Origin: a virus
Virus record (IMG/VR): IMGVR_UViG_3300049845_000291
Span: 88,209 to 152,208 of that record
DNA length: 64,000 bases
Reading direction: 5' to 3' (one strand)
The notes under the pieces are model-generated. The model did not search any database. It was given only the letters and a program-made list of their open reading frames with translations, and was not told where the DNA came from. Both the position numbers and the translations under genes were made by a program. This document shows positions 37,777 through 49,800 of the stretch, in pieces (the stretch's first letter is position 1; each line of letters begins with the position of its first letter).

Positions 37777-38460
37777 ATGACCGTCACTATGAACCACTAC
37801 ACCTATTGTATTGTTTTCCCAGCTATTCCACGACTTTATATCGGGGTTAGGTCTTACAATGGCCCGCCAACTCAGGACGACTACCGCTCTTCATCGAAGA
37901 AAGTGAAGGCTCTCATCAAGGAAGGTTTTCAATATACCATCTCCATAATCGCCACACACGCCACTCGTGCAGAAGCAGAGGCTGAAGAGATTGCTCTCCA
38001 TGATATTTTCGATGTTGCGCGTAATCCATATTTCCTGAATGGCGCCAAGGCCAGACATGGAGGCTTCACACGCGCTGGGGTTCCTTCTGATCAGAAAGGC
38101 CGAACTTATGAGGAACTCTTCGGCATCGAAGAGGCGGCGCGTAAGAGACTCAACTTACAGCAAAAGTTGAGGAACAGGGTCTTCTCGAAAAAGACTAAGG
38201 CCAAAATGGCTGCCTCACACGCAGATGTATCAGGCCCACTAAACCCTCGTGCTATTTCTGGAGCCTTGGAACTTTCTGGCAAGATCCTTTTGGAATATCA
38301 GACAAAAGCTGAACTTGTTCGGTGGTGCCTTGACAATGATGTTCCGCACCGCCCTATCCTAAGGCTTAGGACAGGCGATGCTTATCTGCCCAACATCACC
38401 CCGCGTAATGCGAAGTTCAAGCGTTGGTTTGGTCTTCGTGTTCTGGAACCCCAAAGATAA
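37777..38460 (+). CDS. GIY-YIG homing endonuclease (Seg-like)
   Basis: The 227-residue protein has the GIY-YIG nuclease start (YTYCIVF ... LYIGVRS), then SSSKKVKALIKEG and a helix with AEAEEIALHD, as in T4 Seg proteins. The C-terminal half contains KKTKAKMAASH, a NUMOD3-type DNA-binding repeat. The gene is on the plus strand inside a minus-strand block, has visibly higher A/T than its neighbours and overlaps the 3' end of the hydroxymethylase gene by 44 bases. It is a free-standing mobile endonuclease; a second ATG at 37789 is possible. Confidence 0.9.
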   Translation: MTVTMNHYTYCIVFPAIPRLYIGVRSYNGPPTQDDYRSSSKKVKALIKEGFQYTISIIATHATRAEAEAEEIALHDIFDVARNPYFLNGAKARHGGFTRAGVPSDQKGRTYEELFGIEEAARKRLNLQQKLRNRVFSKKTKAKMAASHADVSGPLNPRAISGALELSGKILLEYQTKAELVRWCLDNDVPHRPILRLRTGDAYLPNITPRNAKFKRWFGLRVLEPQR

Positions 38461-39424
38461 CGTGCATGGCTTCATCACGTTCACCAAAACACATTAGCAC
38501 GAGATTCTGCCAATAAGGTGTAAGCAATTCCCATGCGCCAACGTCCTCAAACGCGAAATCCTTGCTGGCACCGGCAGCCTGCCAAGCAGCTTCAATTCCA
38601 ACAAGCCCCGTGAGAATTTCATCTGAAAAAACGTCCATCTTGATCATCGGCATCTCAAGTGCGCGTTCGTCTTTGATGATGGCCTCAGCCATAGAAAAAT
38701 GGCGCGAGTAAATGTGCATCGAGCCAGCGTTGTGGTAGTACACGCCAAGCTCCAGATCAGGCCAGTGCCGACGAAGCTCGAGCATCATGGCCTCCTGCAG
38801 CATGGTGAACTGGAAGACATCGTTCGTGAACCCGAGGATGATGTCGTTCGATCGCATGTTCACGATCAGGTGCAGCCGGTTCTCACGAATCAACCACTGC
38901 AGCGTGAAGGTGCAGGGCACGTCCTTGTTGCCCACGTGCCGATCACTCGGCACGTGGATGCTCATCACGGCTTGACGGGTGTCCTTGTCGCGGGCCAGGG
39001 CCAGGATGGTCTCCTGCCACTGGTTGATGGGCTCAGGCTTGGACAGCGTGCTGGCTTTGGTGCTGAATGCAGGCAGCTTACTGTGTCCGAACAGCCGGGT
39101 GCCGTAGTTCGAGTTCACGGTACCGGCGGGATAGAGCTCATTGTCACCTAGGTTCCGAATGCCGTCCCAGAACTTGGCGTACGGCAGAATGCCGGCTGGG
39201 TCGTTTGAGCCGCTGATGTACCAGATGAACTCGCCAAGCAAGTACTTCAGGCTGGTCTTGCGGTCGGCATAGTTGATGATCCGATTTCGTGGATCACCGA
39301 GCGTGATGTTGTAGTTCAGGAGCTCCTTCGTCGTGGTGCCCCGTGGGTGCGATTCCATACCGTGATGCATCAGATGCATCAGGCAGGTGCGAAAGTCATG
39401 ATTGAGTTGGTTGTTTTGCTGCAT
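38417..39424 (-). CDS. 42: Deoxycytidylate hydroxymethylase-like (T4 gp42 type)
   Basis: The 335-residue member of the thymidylate synthase superfamily carries the nucleophile Cys171 in DVPCTFTLQW, VNMRSNDIILGF (188-199) and SMHIYSRH (235-242), all close to T4 gp42. Where thymidylate synthases have Asn (FNIA), this protein has Asp202 in GFTND, the residue that gives gp42 its dCMP preference. It should therefore add a hydroxymethyl group to dCMP using methylene-tetrahydrofolate. It is longer than gp42 (246). A GAGG site precedes the start and a GGTTACAATTG promoter box lies 26 bases further up. Confidence 0.88.
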   Translation of the reverse strand: MQQNNQLNHDFRTCLMHLMHHGMESHPRGTTTKELLNYNITLGDPRNRIINYADRKTSLKYLLGEFIWYISGSNDPAGILPYAKFWDGIRNLGDNELYPAGTVNSNYGTRLFGHSKLPAFSTKASTLSKPEPINQWQETILALARDKDTRQAVMSIHVPSDRHVGNKDVPCTFTLQWLIRENRLHLIVNMRSNDIILGFTNDVFQFTMLQEAMMLELRRHWPDLELGVYYHNAGSMHIYSRHFSMAEAIIKDERALEMPMIKMDVFSDEILTGLVGIEAAWQAAGASKDFAFEDVGAWELLTPYWQNLVLMCFGERDEAMHVIFGVPEHEDQTNA

Positions 39425-39533: not shown

Positions 39534-42500
39534 ATGTCATTCAAGAACCTGACCGGTACCGCCCTGATCGGATACGGCCCAAATCTCCCGAGCTCCACGG
39601 CAACTCCTGATGGCAGCTTGTTCTACAAGACCGTGACCAATGTTGAGGGATCACGCGGGTTGTATGTGTTCGGCTTCATTCCAGACAATGACGCGGTCAC
39701 ACCCGGCGGACAGGTAGCACAGGGATGGACCCTGGCCGTGAACACCGCAGGTCTTGACGCAGACACCCTGGACGGCCAGGACAGCTCCGCTTTCCAGCCG
39801 GCCGACAGCGATTTGAGCGCGCTGGCAGGCACCAGCACCACCGGTTTCTACGTTCGGACTGGAACCGGCACCTCAGCAACAAGAACCCTGACTTTCGGTG
39901 CGGGTCTTTCTAGCACAAACGCCGCGGGTCTGTCAGGAAATCCGCTGATCTCGATTGACCAAGCCTCGTTGTCGCTTGGTAGCATTGGTGGTACACTACC
40001 TGTCACCAAGGGTGGAACTGGGTTGACGGCCGCGGTCGCTGGCGGCATTCTGTACGGCACAAGCACCTCGGCTGTTGCTTTCTTCCCGGCTGGCACTGCG
40101 ACCCAGGTGCTCACGAGCACAGGTTCGGGCTTGCTGTGGCAGGACCAATCTAACCTGGCGGTTGGTTCAGCGACAACCGCCAGCACCGCAACGTCCGCGA
40201 CCAGCGCAAACAACGCCGCGACGCTGACAACGACACGCACGTTCAACCTGTCCGGTGTCACGACAGGCGGCGCTCAGAACTTCAACGGTTCGCAGAACGT
40301 GACCATCACGATCACCGCGGTGCCAGCAAGCTTGCTGACTGGCACAATTGCAAGTGACCGGCTGTCGGGTACGTACACAAACGCCTCAATTGGTGGGTCA
40401 GCAGGTTCCGCAGCACAGCTCTCAACAGCGCGAACGATCTCGATCACTGGTGGTGTTTCAGGTTCGGCAACCTTCGATGGATCAGCAAACATCACGATCA
40501 ACACCACGCTGGATGGCGCGAACCACACGCACAGCCAGTACGCGGCGCTTGCTGGCGCCGACTTTACCGGTCCTGTTGACGTAGGTGCAAACATCATCTT
40601 GTCGGCATCAGCTGGTTCAGGCACCTTTACGCGGCTGATCGCCACCGAGGGAACCTCGGGTGCGGCAGCTGCTGACTCAGCAGCAGATACCCTGGTGTTG
40701 GAAAGCAACACAAGCGCCGGCATAACTTTCCGCACACCAAACGCGCAGTACGGAGCGCTGTACTTTGCTGACACCGGTTCAGCATCCTCTGGTCAACTGC
40801 GGTACACTCACAGCACAGATGCGTTCACCCTGTACACGGGTGGCTCATCGCGCTTTACCTTGAGCAACACGCTGCTTGATCTTTCGGTACCACTGACAAG
40901 CTCTGGCACCGTCACGGGTAGTAACCTGACCACGACGGGTGCTGTTACCGCTGGTTCTGTGAGTACGACAGGGGCCATCTCTGGTGGAAGTGTTTCAACA
41001 ACGGGTGCAGTGAGTGGTGGCACGGTGACAGCCACCACCTCGATCAGCACTGGCACGATCTCCCTGACGAGCTCTAACGGCCAAATCAGCGCAACGCGCA
41101 TGGTTCTGAGTGAAGGAGCATCAGGCTCAGTTACCCCATCAACAGCCGCTGATACGCTGGTAATCGAAAGTAGCGGCACTGTTGGTATGACCTTTAGGAC
41201 GCCAACGTCAACATCTGGCACCGACCACTTTGGCGCCATTTACTGGGCCGATCCAGCCTCTGCAGCTGCTGGTCAGATTCGGTACACCCACACCCCTGAC
41301 GCGTTCACAATGTACACGAACGGCGGTCTGCGTCTGACATTGAACAGCACAACTCTGCACACCACCGTGCCGATCGGCATTGGTACCGACTCGCCAGCAC
41401 GCGCGCTTGACGCTCGTTCTGGTTCGTTTGCCTCGAACCAGAACTTCGGCCTGCAGATCGCGAGCCCTGCGGCACAGTGGCGTGCGCAGTTCAACATCAA
41501 GTCCGATGGTGTTGGTTCTCCACGCACCACTATTGACGCAGTTGGTGGTAACTCGAGCGAGTTGAACGAGGTTGTAGCCTTCAACTCATCTGGTCGCATG
41601 CTGCTCCCGATGAATATCCCATCAACTACCACAAACACCGGTACGTTGGTGGTGACTGGCGGGGTTGGCATCTCTGAGAACCTCAGAGTTGGCGGTAACA
41701 TTTTTGGCAACGGTGCAAACATCACGTCGCTCGATGCAGACAACCTAACCACAGGCACCGTGGCCAACGAACGAATTTCGGGAGCGTACAACGGTTTCTC
41801 TGTCGTGACAGCTTCAACCGCGTTCATTGGGCCAGCGGGCGATAACAGCAACCCAACCTTTAGATTCTCAGGAGATGCCAATACGGGCATCTACCGCTCC
41901 GCTGCTAACACGATTGGATTTGCTAGCGCTGGCACACTGGTCGCAAGTATTGCTTCTGGTGGCAACATGACGCTCAATGGTCGAATCTTGGTTGGGCTAG
42001 GATCCAACTCGTTGCCATCTATCTCGTTTGGATCTGACGACAACACCGGCTTCTACCGAACAGGAACGGCTGACACCATCGGCGCGTCAGTTGGTGGTAC
42101 TCAGGTAGCGACCTTCAATGCGGCTGGCCTTTCAGTCGGCGGCACGACAGGTCTTACTGTGTCCGGGAAGGTGCTCGCGGCTATTGGTGATGCCACGGCT
42201 CCAACGATCTCCTTTAGTACAGACGATGACACTGGTTTCTTCAGGCCAGCCACAGCCAACACCATTGGTGTCACGGTGGGTGGAGCCCTGGAGGCAACCT
42301 TTAGCGCCACTGGACTTGACGTCAGTGGTAAGGTGCTCGTTGCAAACGGACTAGCCACTGCCCCGACTTTGACCTTTACGAACGACGACAACACGGGGTT
42401 CTTCCGACCAACCACGGCTGACACCCTTGGTGTCACGACAGGTGGCACCCTGGCCGCAACATTTGATGCAACGGGGAACTTCACGGCCGTTGGCAACGTC

Positions 42501-42880: not shown

Positions 42881-43774
42881 TCACTCGTACGACTTCAGCT
42901 CGTCTGGGACCTTGAACTTCAGGCGCTTGATGTTACGAACGGCGTCCTTGAAGATCGCAGGCGCCTCGTCCTTCCGATGTCGCTTGATCAGCTCGATCAG
43001 TGACTCGACGCTCATGAGCTGGTTGGCATTGACCTTACCACCGAACAGGAGCTTAGCAAACTTCTCAGGATCACGAATGACATCAGGAGACTTGTCGAAA
43101 GTTTCCTTGCGCCCAAGTTCCTTGATGACCTGTTCTACCTGGTCTGGGTCGACCTTCTCAACACCCTTGACCCGGCCCTTGCCGTCCTTACGCTTAGGTG
43201 CGACCTTGAAGATCCGCTCAACCCCATCAATCAGCTTGTACGAGCGTGAAGCTCGAGCCACGTCATTTCCGTTCTCATCCTTGATGCGCACATCCTTGCC
43301 AGGCTCCATTGAGAACTTCAGCAGGCTGTGCAGCAGCTCGTTTCGAACGCCGCTCTTGTGCTTCGAGAACTCGGACGAGTGATGGGAGAACTTGGCCCAC
43401 TTCAGGTCAGGCACAAACATCAGATCGACCTGAACCTTCCTGCCATCAAAGGTCGGCACGGCAAATGAGTACGTGTTCCCACCGATCTCAACTGGCTTTG
43501 CGCCTGTGAGCTCGGTGAGCTTGTCTAATACGATCTGCCGATCGATCTCATCGGTCTGGATCGCAAGATCGACGTCTCCGCTCTCGTCCTGATGGCCATT
43601 GTACGTCAGACGTCCGGATCCTAGCAGCCGATCCTTCAGCTGCTCGACAGGCAAACCGGTGGCGGCTGACACGTGCTTGAAAGCCGCCACCATATCGCGT
43701 TTGGTAGCTGGCACGGTGCCAAGGCTCTTGGTTGCCTTGCCACCTTCTAACAGGAACTGTTTGAACGTGATCAT
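42881..43774 (-). CDS. Nucleotidyltransferase-fold protein with capsid-targeting N terminus
   Basis: The 297-residue protein begins MITFKQFLLEGG, which resembles the T4 capsid-targeting sequence of internal head proteins (MKTYQEFIAEA in T4), and LLE-G fits the cleavage rule of the T4 head protease. After that, GSGRLTY (52-58), DVDLA (67-71) and VQVDLMFV (114-121) give the three-acid pattern of a Pol-beta-type nucleotidyltransferase. The C-terminal half is basic and helical. It has its own late-type box six bases before the ATG. Best guess: a protein packed in the head and injected to modify a host target; that role is inferred. Confidence 0.65.
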   Translation of the reverse strand: MITFKQFLLEGGKATKSLGTVPATKRDMVAAFKHVSAATGLPVEQLKDRLLGSGRLTYNGHQDESGDVDLAIQTDEIDRQIVLDKLTELTGAKPVEIGGNTYSFAVPTFDGRKVQVDLMFVPDLKWAKFSHHSSEFSKHKSGVRNELLHSLLKFSMEPGKDVRIKDENGNDVARASRSYKLIDGVERIFKVAPKRKDGKGRVKGVEKVDPDQVEQVIKELGRKETFDKSPDVIRDPEKFAKLLFGGKVNANQLMSVESLIELIKRHRKDEAPAIFKDAVRNIKRLKFKVPDELKSYE

Positions 43775-43780
43775 GGTTCC

Positions 43781-43787
43781 TATTTAG
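43781..43787 (-). promoter_or_regulatory. Late-type promoter box (CTAAATAGG) six bases from a start
   Basis: CTAAATA then GGAACC then the ATG at 43774 on the minus strand. It is divergent from the box at 43810. By T4 late-promoter geometry the message would begin at or near the ATG. Confidence 0.55.
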
Positions 43788-43841: not shown

Positions 43842-46800
43842 ATGAAGATCTTCGGCATTCGTCTCCAAGAAGGCACCCAGATCACCAATTTGACGGTGGG
43901 CTCTGGAACCTCATTTCCCACCTCCCCGAATGAGGGTGAGCTCTTCTTTAGGTCAGATGCTAGTCTGCTGACTCGAGGTCTTTGGCTGTATGTTGGAGGA
44001 AACTGGGATCGAATTGCAAGCACTGACAGCTTGACTGTCCCGAACGGTGCTTCTCTTCCTGCGCAAGCCCAGGAAGGTGACATCTTCTTCAGGAACTCGA
44101 ACGACTCGAACGAGGGCCTGTACGTGTACTCCAACGGCGCTTGGGGTACCGTTGGCACGTCCGCAAATGAGCTTGAAGCCGAGATCTCAAAGTCAGTTCC
44201 TCCCGGTTCGATTGGGCAGGTACCATTCATCTCGGTTGATGGTACCCGTGAAACCGAGCAAGGGTACACGGTCATCCCTGGGCAGTTCATCGAAAGTGAC
44301 GCAGAGCTGACGGAAGCACAGACACGGATCGTCAGTCAAGAAGACATCTTCAATGAGTGGTACCGGTTCTCGCACCAAGCAAGCGCTGGCGGCACCCTGA
44401 CAAGAACCGCAAACGTTTCAAGATTCCAATTCACCTCATCGAATCTTGCAACAGTTTCTGCATCATTCCCAGTTGGTTCAACGATCCAAGTTGTCTCGGT
44501 AGGTAACCCAAGCTTCAACGGAACGTGGACGGTTAGCGCTGTTTCTGCTTCAGGCCAGAACCACGTGGTGTTCTGGAACCAGGAAGCGGCAGATGCAACC
44601 TCGGTAACTGGCATCATTCAGCTCGATAGCCTACAACCCGCTTACCCTGCCGAACTCACAGCATGGAGCTATGACGCGATCAATGATCGTGTTGTGTGTA
44701 CTGTCAACAGCGATTCTCACCTTGGTTTTATCAGCCAAAATCGCTTCTCATCGTACGAGCACGAGGTTGTACTGCGCTCAACCAATTCCGATGATGATAG
44801 CATTGGTGTCGTTCTGGCGTGGGCGGTTGTTGGTGGTCGAGAGTACACGCTGACTGCAATTCGCAGCACAGGTGGCCAGGGCTTTACGTGGCGGGTTGTT
44901 TACAACTTCAGTCGATCAGATTCGATTACCGTTCAAGACAAGACCACAGAGGTTAAGTGGGGCAACGGTGGATATGGCGCTACTGCTGGCGCGGCCGGGT
45001 ATGTCGCGAACGCAGCACTAGGTGGCTGGGATGATTTTCCAGCCGGCACACGAGTCAAGATCACACGCGACAACGATATCTTCACTGTCCAGACCTCTGA
45101 CCTTGGAGAAAGCACATACGTCTCGGCGGCGACAATTACCGTCGATTTGACTTCGGCGGCGTACCTTGAGAAGTTCCGTGGTCCGCGTGAGATTGGTTAC
45201 TCCACAAGCTCACAAGCCAGCAGCTCATTCGAGATCCTGAGCTTCAGTGACAGTGCGAACGACATCTACGACATTCGAAATGGCAACGTCTACAGGTACG
45301 TTGTTGACTCCTGGGAGCTGCAGCCATTCACCCTCACCGAGGCTATTGGCCCTGGTAAGCTGCTGTACGACATCTATACTGAGAAGCTGTTTTGGATGGA
45401 TCCGATTCTTGGCGCGACCAAGATCGGTGATCGATACGTGGCGCGCCATGGCGACACGATGGATGGACCATTGGTCGTCACCACCAATACCACGGAAACG
45501 GCTGTTAGGATCACACAGACAGGCGCAGGCGCAGCACTTCTTGTCGAGGATTCGGCCAACCCCGATAGCACCCCGTTCACTGTGTTGTCTGATGGCAAGG
45601 TGCTAATCGGATCTGACACAGTCAGGACCGCAAGCTCTGGTATTGTGCCTCAGTTGCAGTTGAACACAAACAACACGAACATTGGCGCCGCGTTCAACAT
45701 CTTTGGCACGACTGCTCTAGGTTCGGCGCTGTACTTCTTGAAGACCAGAAGCACTGTTCCAAGTGATCATTCTGCCGTGCTTTCAAATGACGCGCTTGGT
45801 AGCTTGATCTTTGAAGGATCTGACGGTGTTGGATTCTTCCGTGGTGCCTTGATTCAATCGGTCGTTGACGCCACGCCAGCAACCGGATCAGTTCCAGCTG
45901 CACTGGTGTTTAGCACGACGGCTGCTGGCGATGCATCTCCAACTGAACGCCTGCGGATCTCTTCAGCTGGTGCGCTTCGTGTCTCGAGCAGCTTTGGTAT
46001 TGCGGGACAGGTTCTGACAAGCCAAGGAAGCTCGGCTCCACCCCAATGGACCACACCACCTGGATCGGGCACCGTTACCTCAGTTGCGATCGAACCAGCT
46101 GGCGTTGGCATCTCAGTTAGCGGCTCTCCGATCACGAGCTCTGGCACGATCACCATCACGTCGAATGCGACGAACAGCAACACACCAAGCACCATTGTTG
46201 CTCGAGATGGATCTGGGAACTTCAGTGCTGGCGTCGTCACGGTCGGTCAGCTTTCACTCCCGTCGAATGCCAGCATTAGGACTTTCAGCTCCGGCGATCC
46301 AATCGTCAACGGTCTAACAACCAACTCCGATTTTGGTCTATTGATTGATGGCGTGTCCAATGGACACGTTGTGGTCGCGCTTGATTCGAACGACGATGAA
46401 GAGTCGTTCTACGTGATGTCGTACACCACCGACAACAGCACGTCAGCTAACAAAGCTATGACGAACGTGGCGCTGCGCGTCACGCGTCAGGGCAACATGA
46501 CCGTGTCAGGCTCAATGACCGGTACACAGGTCAATCTGCCAGTTTCTCAGACCGCAACCGCAACACTGACCACGAGCACCACGGCCGCTGGTCAAGTCCT
46601 GGCAACGTTCCCATCGGCTACATATCGAAGCGCCAAGTTCCTGGTTCAGATCTCATCTGGTACATCGCACCAGATCACTGAGCTGAACATGGTTCACAAT
46701 GGAACAACGGTGTTCATGACCGAATTCGGTACAGTGAACACCAGCAGCGATCTGGCAAGCTTTGCCGCTGACGTATCAGGTGGCAATGTTCGTCTTCTCA

Positions 46801-46859
46801 CGACGCCGGCCAACGCCGTCACAACTTACAAGGTGGTTCGCACGTCGATCACCGCTTAA
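43842..46859 (+). CDS. Tail fibre / adhesin with lectin-like middle
   Basis: The 1005-residue protein begins MKIFGIRLQEGTQITN. Two N-terminal repeats of the type GELFFRSDASLLTRGLWLYV and GDIFFRNSNDSNEGLYVYS match attachment motifs of the other fibres. Residues about 170-450 are a non-repetitive beta-rich region (SSYEHEVVLRSTNSDDDSIG ...) that resembles laminin-G or concanavalin-like folds and may bind a glycan. The rest has fibre repeats (GVGISVSGSPITSSGTITI). There is no S74 domain. CTAAATA and GGAAAG precede the start. Confidence 0.78.
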   Translation: MKIFGIRLQEGTQITNLTVGSGTSFPTSPNEGELFFRSDASLLTRGLWLYVGGNWDRIASTDSLTVPNGASLPAQAQEGDIFFRNSNDSNEGLYVYSNGAWGTVGTSANELEAEISKSVPPGSIGQVPFISVDGTRETEQGYTVIPGQFIESDAELTEAQTRIVSQEDIFNEWYRFSHQASAGGTLTRTANVSRFQFTSSNLATVSASFPVGSTIQVVSVGNPSFNGTWTVSAVSASGQNHVVFWNQEAADATSVTGIIQLDSLQPAYPAELTAWSYDAINDRVVCTVNSDSHLGFISQNRFSSYEHEVVLRSTNSDDDSIGVVLAWAVVGGREYTLTAIRSTGGQGFTWRVVYNFSRSDSITVQDKTTEVKWGNGGYGATAGAAGYVANAALGGWDDFPAGTRVKITRDNDIFTVQTSDLGESTYVSAATITVDLTSAAYLEKFRGPREIGYSTSSQASSSFEILSFSDSANDIYDIRNGNVYRYVVDSWELQPFTLTEAIGPGKLLYDIYTEKLFWMDPILGATKIGDRYVARHGDTMDGPLVVTTNTTETAVRITQTGAGAALLVEDSANPDSTPFTVLSDGKVLIGSDTVRTASSGIVPQLQLNTNNTNIGAAFNIFGTTALGSALYFLKTRSTVPSDHSAVLSNDALGSLIFEGSDGVGFFRGALIQSVVDATPATGSVPAALVFSTTAAGDASPTERLRISSAGALRVSSSFGIAGQVLTSQGSSAPPQWTTPPGSGTVTSVAIEPAGVGISVSGSPITSSGTITITSNATNSNTPSTIVARDGSGNFSAGVVTVGQLSLPSNASIRTFSSGDPIVNGLTTNSDFGLLIDGVSNGHVVVALDSNDDEESFYVMSYTTDNSTSANKAMTNVALRVTRQGNMTVSGSMTGTQVNLPVSQTATATLTTSTTAAGQVLATFPSATYRSAKFLVQISSGTSHQITELNMVHNGTTVFMTEFGTVNTSSDLASFAADVSGGNVRLLTTPANAVTTYKVVRTSITA

Positions 46860-46888
46860 TTCAAGCTTGCTATAGAGGAAAGTGAATC

Positions 46889-49800
46889 ATGGCAACAAAC
46901 CGCAGCTTCGTCGCTAAGAACGGCCTTGACAACAACGGCAACCCGATCACCGGTGCCGGTACAGTCGGGTCATCGCTTCAGGTCTCAGGCGCTCACGCGC
47001 TGACCTTCACCCTTGCTGGTCCAACCACTGTCTCGCTGCCCACATCTGGCACCCTGGTCACGAGCACGCAGATCTCCGCGCTCTCAACTGCCACATCAGC
47101 GAACACACCGAACACCATTGTTCAGCGTGACGGCTCTGGGAACTTTAGTGCTGGCACTGTGACATTGACTGGCCTGACGACATCGGCCTTGTCAGTCAGC
47201 ACATCTGGCATTCCTCTGTTCAGCCACCCAACAGCCATCCAGCTTGAGCTGCGTGAGGGTGATCAAACGCTACCAGCTGGTCGTTGGCGCTTCACGGTTG
47301 ACGGCGACATCCTGAGTGTTCGACACAACACAGCGGTCGCTGGGGACTTCACCACTTACGTCTCCCCGATCTCGTTCAGCAGCACGAACAACGTCACCAT
47401 CCCAAACAACTTGCTGGTTAGTGGCACGATCACTGGCACCCTGTCAGGGAACGCCAGCACCGCAACCGCCCTACAGACCGGACGTACGTTCTCTGTTTCT
47501 GGTGACGCCACTGGCACGTCAACCGCCTTCACTGGAACGGCCGACGCCACAATCCCGGTAACTCTGGCGACGGTGAACAGCAACGTCGGCTCGTTTGGCA
47601 CCGCGTCTCAAGTCAGCACCTTCACGGTGAACGCGAAAGGCCTGATCACCGCGGCCTCGAACACCAACATCGCGATTGCTGCTGGTGCAGTCACGTCTGG
47701 CACCTTCGCCGATGCTCGCATTGCTGCTTCCAATGTGACGCAGCACCAGGCGGCGCTGACCATCGCTGAGACGCAGATCACCGACGGCGCGCTCTTGGCT
47801 CGCAACGCCGGCAACGAGACCATCTCGGGCACGTGGACCTTCAGCAACAACGTCACCGTGCCGTTGGTACCAACGGCTGACAGCCACGCGGCTTCGAAGC
47901 AGTACGTTGACAACATGGCCGCTGGCGTTGCGCCACAGGAATCGGTACGCGCCGCAACGACGGCTGCCATCACCCTGTCTGGCACACAGACAGTTGACGG
48001 TGTGGCGCTGATCGCTGGTGATCGCGTGCTGGTTAAGGACCAGGGCACCGCGTCACAGAACGGCATCTATGTCGTAGCGGCCGGCGCTTGGACACGCGCT
48101 ACTGACTTTGACGGCTCACCGACTAACGAGGTCACTCAAGGCGATCTGATCTTCGTTGAACTTGGAACCGTGAACGCAAACACCTCATGGGTGTTGTTGA
48201 CGGCTAACCCAATCACTGTTGGCACGAGCGCGCTGAACTTCTCGATCTTCAGTCGTTCTGCTGACCTGAACGCCGGCAACGGCCTGACGCGTTCAGGTAA
48301 CACCATCAACGTTGTCACGGCCTCCACCGCTCGCATCGTTGTCAACGCCGACAACATCGATCTGGCAACCGCTGGTACGGCTGGCACCTATCGTTCGGTG
48401 ACGACCGATGCATACGGCCGCGTCACGGCCGGTACTAACCCAACGACGCTGTCTGGATACGGCATCACGGACGCGCAACCTCTTGACGCCGATCTGACCG
48501 CCATTGCTGGTCTTGTTGGTACCTCTGGTTTGCTTCGTAAGGTGGGCACGGATTCTTGGTCACTTGACACCGCCACGTACCTGACTGGTAACCAGTCGAT
48601 CAGCTTGACGGGTGATGCAACTGGTACTGGCGCAACCTCCATCGCGGTAACACTGGCCAACACGGCAGTGACGCCAGCTTCTTATGGCTCGGCCACCCAG
48701 GTCGGTACCTTCACTGTTGACTCGAAGGGCCGTCTGACGGCCGCATCGAACACGACGATCGCGATTCCAACCTCTGCTGTCACATCTGGCACCTTCGCTA
48801 ATGCGCGCATTGCTGCCTCGAACGTCACGCAACACCAAGCTGCGCTGACCATTGCTGAGACGCAGATCACTGACGGCGCGTTGCTCGCTCGTGTTGGTGA
48901 CGACGAGACAATTTCCGGGAACTGGGCGTTCAGCAACAACGTCACCGTGCCGCTGGTGCCAACCGCGCTGGCGCACGCCGCTTCTAAGCAGTACGTTGAC
49001 AACTCGCTGCAGGGCCTGCAAAGCAAGCCATCAGTTCGCGCCGCCACAACCGCCAACCTGACCGCTACGTACTCGAACGGTAGCGCTGGTGTTGGTGCCA
49101 CCCTGACTGGTACTGGCACGCTGCCGACCATTGATGGTGTGACCCTGACAACTGGAGACGGGGTGCTGGTCAAGAACCAGACGGCATCGCTGCAAAACGG
49201 CCGATACAACGTCACGACCGTTTCTCCGAACTGGGTGCTGACCCGCTGCGGCCTGTGCGATGAGAACGACGAGATCCCTGGTGCTTACATCTTTGTCACG
49301 GATGGCAGTACGCTCAAGAACACTGGTTGGGTGCTATCGGTCGCAAGCCCGTCAACATTCGTAGTTGGCACCGACGCCATCACTGTGGTTCAGTTCTCTG
49401 GGGCAGGAGAATACACTGCGGGTGCAGGCCTTGCGCTGTTTGGTAATACCTTCAGCGTCGGCACAGCGTCAGCAGCTCGCATCGTGGTCAACGCGGACAC
49501 CATCGACCTGGCAACTGTTGGTACCGCGGGCACCTATCGCTCTGTCACGACTGACGCATATGGTCGTGTCACGGCTGGCACGAACCCAACGACGTTGTCT
49601 GGATATGGCATCACGGATGCGCAACCTCTTGATGCCGACCTGACCTCCATCGCAGGTCTTGCTGGTACCTCTGGTTTGTTGCGCAAGACCGCAGCAAATA
49701 CCTGGTCGCTGGACACCAATACGTACATCACCGGTAACGAGACCATCACCCTGTCAGGTGATGTCACCGGGTCTGGCAGCACTGCGATTACCGCCACGTT

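Follow-up and report, generated by a model that had tools for sequence, protein, structure and literature searches.

Because internal proteins share little besides their tags, the cargo of phage heads is hard to recognise. The gene studied here raises the question of whether a small nucleotidyltransferase with a T4-style N terminus is carried in the phage head and injected, and on what it would then act. The stretch of DNA analysed, here called the window, makes up the rightmost 64 kb of a virus record 152,208 bp long, the DNA polymerase of which is closest to those of the XacN1, Stenotrophomonas, and Phosso jumbo phages (~31-34% identity). The 152-kb source record, which seems to be a fragment, yielded neither an S77 protease nor head genes. 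The open reading frame begins with ATG and encodes 297 amino acids, with the N terminus MITFKQFLLEGGKATKSLG / MITFKQFLLEGGKATK onward. Its features in window coordinates, each with its basis, are as follows:

42881..43774 (-): tagged family X-like nucleotidyltransferase gene (ORF, 52-member alignment, AF2 model, PDB fold matches)
43745..43774 (-): codons 1-10, MITFKQFLLE, presumed capsid-targeting propeptide, presumably cut after Glu10 (T4 IPIII rule, family [LI]xE rule, low model confidence)
43739..43744 (-): codons 11-12, Gly-Gly, conserved mature start (alignment; M-GG or M-SG starts in untagged members)
43568..43621 (-): codons 52-69, G-S ... S-G-D-V-D nucleotide-binding and catalytic motif, with D67 and D69 (alignment)
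43424..43432 (-): codons 115-117, Q-V-D, third catalytic aspartate D117 and Gln115 (invariant, 52/52)
43781..43786 (-): T4-like late promoter box TAAATA, CTAAATAG (motif statistics; boxes upstream of relatives' starts)

With the single protein as query, tblastn, Pfam, PHROG, and PDB searches gave nothing useful, and a degenerate DNA pattern search returned no match. A profile search run genome by genome over reference phages recovered Phosso 447 (E 5e-15) and Paride_0028 (E 5e-4). Searching with an alignment that included the Atu_ph07, PA5oct, and Lak copies yielded 139 relatives in viral contigs, from which 80 loci were retained. Identity to the window protein is 40-46% in the nearest ones (L042-L047). 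Pfam contains no family for the nucleotidyltransferase domain.

The Pol-beta-type GS...DVD...D pattern claimed in a first-pass annotation of this DNA was confirmed by comparison of these relatives. The pattern GS...SGDVDLAI...VQVDLMF is present, with GS at residues 52-53, SGDVD at 65-69, and the last aspartate at 117. The three catalytic aspartates, together with the GS...SGDxD signature of family X DNA polymerases, are present and invariant in the 52 aligned members; the invariant positions are G52, G60, G66, D67, D69, Q115, and D117, and S53, S65, and K140 are nearly so. An AF2 model built from a 49-sequence alignment had a mean pLDDT of 95 and a pTM of 0.90, and residues 1-10 were its only poorly modelled part (mean pLDDT 55). 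A single-sequence model was poor (pLDDT 40) and was dropped. All 27 PDB fold matches at E<=0.001 were to DNA polymerase lambda or beta, a Pol-beta-superfamily fold. The likeness to Pol lambda is local (TM 0.34) and TM-scores overall lie near 0.3, so it is the palm that matches and not the entire chain; the best viral fold match was the Atu_ph07 homologue (TM 0.75). A profile search of PDB sequences gave chance matches only. Since no family X profile was matched in Pfam or PDB profile searches, we label the protein "family X-like" and do not assign it to family X. Neither sequence nor fold searches matched the MNT, AbiEii, KNT, or ADP-ribosyltransferase families. The enzyme is predicted, from its sequence and model, to be a minimal family X polymerase-like nucleotidyltransferase. 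With family X polymerases (Pol beta and lambda, ASFV Pol X) it shares the GS...SGD[IV]D...D motif and the palm fold; it differs from them in having no evident 8-kDa lyase domain and in possessing a C-terminal part of its own and a phage head tag.

In T4 IPIII, targeting relies on residues 4 and 7, and processing on residues 8 and 10 (PMC9026906). MITFKQFLLE fits this plan at all four positions, which bears out the first-pass reading of an internal-protein tag. The plan M-x-T-[FY]-x-x-F-[IL]-x-E would be expected 0.00017 times among the record's 173 ORF starts, given N-terminal composition. A looser DNA plan, with position 3 free, was run against 12 phage records and found three T4 gene starts, the window gene, and scattered matches elsewhere, while its reversed control gave 6 matches in total and none in T4 or in the source record. 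The window gene resembles those of T4 IPI-IPIII and Alt in its ten-residue tag (aromatic residue 4, Phe 7, Ile/Leu 8, Glu 10), its predicted late box, and its basic internal-protein logic, in a system where T4 uses a capsid-targeting sequence, cleavage by gp21, and injection. Its mature part differs, being a nucleotidyltransferase unrelated to the IPs or to Alt; an ADP-ribosyltransferase domain of the T4 Alt type was absent by sequence and fold search. As a side observation, T4 gene 61.1 (NC_000866 18966-19130 (-)) starts with the CTS-like MKTFKEFIKE.

The proposed head-protease site, [LI]-x-E, proved to be kept family-wide. At P1, the residue before the mature start, 46 of the relatives' 49 distinct N termini have Glu and the other 3 have Met; three loci had no clear boundary. 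Within these 46, Leu or Ile occupies P3 in 44 (the remaining two have Val and Phe), and P1' is Gly in 40, Ala in 4, and Asn in 2; binomial statistics on these counts take no account of relatedness. P3 is fixed while P2, P4-P7, and tag length vary, as seen in the leaders MTVTFKQFLLE, MKTFKQLINE, MLRFKEFIKE, MKIAELLFE, MILLE, and MKLKQLFE, all of which end in [LI]xE. The mature start is usually Gly-Gly, with Gly12 present in 51 of 52 aligned members. The untagged Phosso, Atu_ph07, PA5oct, and Lak copies begin M-GG or M-SG. In general, an initiator Met is removed before Gly or Ser, which would give these copies an N terminus similar to that of the tagged form after cleavage. In some members the leader ahead of Gly-Gly is just 5-7 residues long, which is less than a complete T4-type targeting sequence needs. 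Across the source record, [LI]xE near N termini is weakly enriched (7/162 versus a 2.5% background).

The gene had also been credited with a private late box beside fibre genes, and this box was found and recurs upstream of the start in several relatives. By motif statistics, TAAATA is a real box in the source record: in this GC-rich sequence it lies within 45 nt upstream of 24 ORF starts, compared to 3 for the reversed motif. Its distance to the start codon is mostly 26-34 nt. In the window gene, the first T lies 12 nt before the ATG, and four boxes in all are spaced at only 10-12 nt:

record 131994 (-), 40270 (-), 49127 (-), 64302 (+): short-spaced TAAATA boxes (10-12 nt)

By T4 geometry, a box at this spacing would give leaderless mRNAs. 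Three of the four precede the nucleotidyltransferase gene, a second tagged gene, and the ligase-like gene described below, and the 10-12 nt spacing also occurs at loci L052, L061, L064, and L066. In L042, L044, L045, and L047, the nucleotidyltransferase gene likewise lies among fibre-like genes on the opposite strand, close to a gene resembling window ORF 38417-39424, which by inspection we take to encode thymidylate synthase.

A search for the same tag on other genes of this phage found one further gene, at record 39652-40260 (-) (L004:1652-2260), encoding 202 amino acids and starting MRHITFKSFLAE. It belongs to no known family and is unrelated to the nucleotidyltransferase, yet bears the same tag; a relative at L129:1438-2289 (+) starts MQTFKQFLTE. 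In L043 and L044, adjacent genes carry the tag type of the local nucleotidyltransferase. The PA5oct homologue EST35_0231 (QCG76112.1), which has no tag, is annotated in its record as "structural protein, ESI-MS/MS." An S77 head protease was present in 14 of 19 searched records with a relative, namely 11 of 16 relatives' contigs together with Phosso, Paride, and Atu_ph07. Packaging and cleavage give the best account of the tag rule together with the virion annotation and the protease; from this we infer that the tagged enzyme is probably packaged in the capsid and cut there, a well-supported reading.

A frequent companion of the nucleotidyltransferase is a KxDG ligase-like family, which matches DUF6267 in 10 of 15 members and Pfam RNA_ligase in 5 of 15 (best 1.6e-5, the match of the phage's own copy falling below the cut-off). 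No DNA ligase family in Pfam was matched, and hhalign of the family against T4 RnlB and gp30 was insignificant. The domain, known as DUF6267 or phrog_455 in T4-like cyanophages, is KxDG ligase-like and not of Pol-beta type. Of the 80 loci, 14 carry it as a fusion with the nucleotidyltransferase and another 24 have it close by. The phage's own partner (record 46792-49116 (-), 774 aa) starts MPVLLE|SVTHIEDL, is homologous to Phosso 446, and carries the RNA/DNA ligase-type motifs EKLDG, EGIV, and LKIVDRD; the idea that it fuses homologues of Phosso 446 and 448 was confirmed for 446 and not for 448. The 746-aa protein encoded at record 44555-46795 (-) contains ~13 AEGD repeats in a row and matched no family. 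The PA5oct EST35_0231 / Paride_0028, Phosso 447, and Atu_ph07 AUZ94877 homologues have the same active site as the window protein, but start MSG or MGG without a tag and adjoin helicase and ligase-like genes instead of fibre genes.

An [LI]xE end directly ahead of a conserved HxED start is likewise seen in many partner genes (in L100, MRTFRQFILE|AKNTHLLHIDQ). In a first set of phages, nucleotidyltransferase and partner were both tagged in 13 cases and both untagged in 5, with 0 exceptions. Five further phages contained 4 exceptions (three of the closest relatives and the L090 phage), which rules out that the two tags always occur together. Overall, tag state was concordant in 14 + 5 cases and mixed in 4 (Fisher p ~0.009, uncorrected for relatedness). 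Given that these three relatives have an untagged ligase-like protein, the two enzymes are not bound to travel together. In fused members such as L118, L088, and L121, [LIV]xE sites also occur between the nucleotidyltransferase and DUF6267 domains, and the two might be separated by cleavage in the head. Locus L109:4253-6913 (+) encodes a triple fusion of nucleotidyltransferase, DUF6267, and a cytidylyltransferase-like domain (phrog_3041).

Taken as a whole, the locus is best explained, with modest confidence, by a family X-like repair enzyme that is made late, packed in the head, cleaved, and injected. The gene would be expressed late from its own TAAATA box, and the ten-residue tag would bring the product into the assembling head, where the protease would cut after Leu-Leu-Glu. 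The mature enzyme, Gly-Gly first, would leave the head with the DNA, enter the host cell, and most likely add nucleotides to nucleic-acid gaps or ends soon afterwards; in many phages the ligase-like partner would join in, and the incoming genome (or damaged RNA) would be patched. One point against this explanation is that the sole homologue with virion evidence is untagged. The product could alternatively be an ordinary late enzyme that never enters the virion, the [LI]xE-GG start being its own uncut N terminus. The very short leaders of some members would agree with this, and E-GG could be a conserved feature of the fold. We nevertheless judge it improbable, because P3 is fixed amid variable neighbours, there are untagged M-GG members, only the ten tag residues are poorly modelled, the PA5oct homologue carries a virion annotation, and unrelated genes bear the same tag.

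The enzyme's substrate is more likely than not nucleic acid, DNA being slightly ahead of RNA. The first-pass annotation had favoured an Alt-like effector, and such a protein would transfer NMP to a host protein or tRNA during host takeover. The delivery route is that of Alt, and Pol-beta-superfamily enzymes outside family X modify tRNA and proteins. This role was not specifically supported; with an SGDxD signature as in family X and none of the effector families matched, we regard it as unlikely. Given that the nearest fold is family X and the frequent partner is ligase-like, end or gap processing of nucleic acid is at least as likely as modification of tRNA or host protein. Slightly less unlikely than the effector is injected RNA repair, in which the enzyme would restore RNA ends after cleavage by host defence nucleases, to be sealed by the partner. 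Although the partner's RNA_ligase matches and its want of any DNA ligase family point this way, the closest folds are DNA polymerases, the comparison with RnlB was insignificant, and the partner lacks a tag in the closest relatives.

ASFV packages Pol X and a DNA ligase, presumably for genome repair before replication (PMC12172490), and the likeness to the preferred reading, an injected repair enzyme, is one of analogy and not of homology. Tentatively, the relatives may form a large family of family X-like polymerases carried in the capsid, frequently paired or fused with a ligase-like enzyme as an injected repair kit, in which the mature Gly-Gly is reached through the head protease or Met removal. 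If the enzyme is injected, tailed phages would supply a polymerase-like activity along with the genome, ahead of any phage gene expression. The tag and cut-site rule is displayed here by one enzyme family with >100 viral relatives, and a search for [LI]xE immediately ahead of a conserved mature start could uncover further head cargo in phages that encode an S77 protease. Beside the homologue in L039:7582-12514 (+) and Atu_ph07, tandem genes start MRLFQLLE, MRWHQLIE, MKWHQLTE, and MRWDQLTE and share a YRG-type sequence that by eye we take to be ADP-ribosyltransferase-like; these genes are a possible battery of tagged head proteins.
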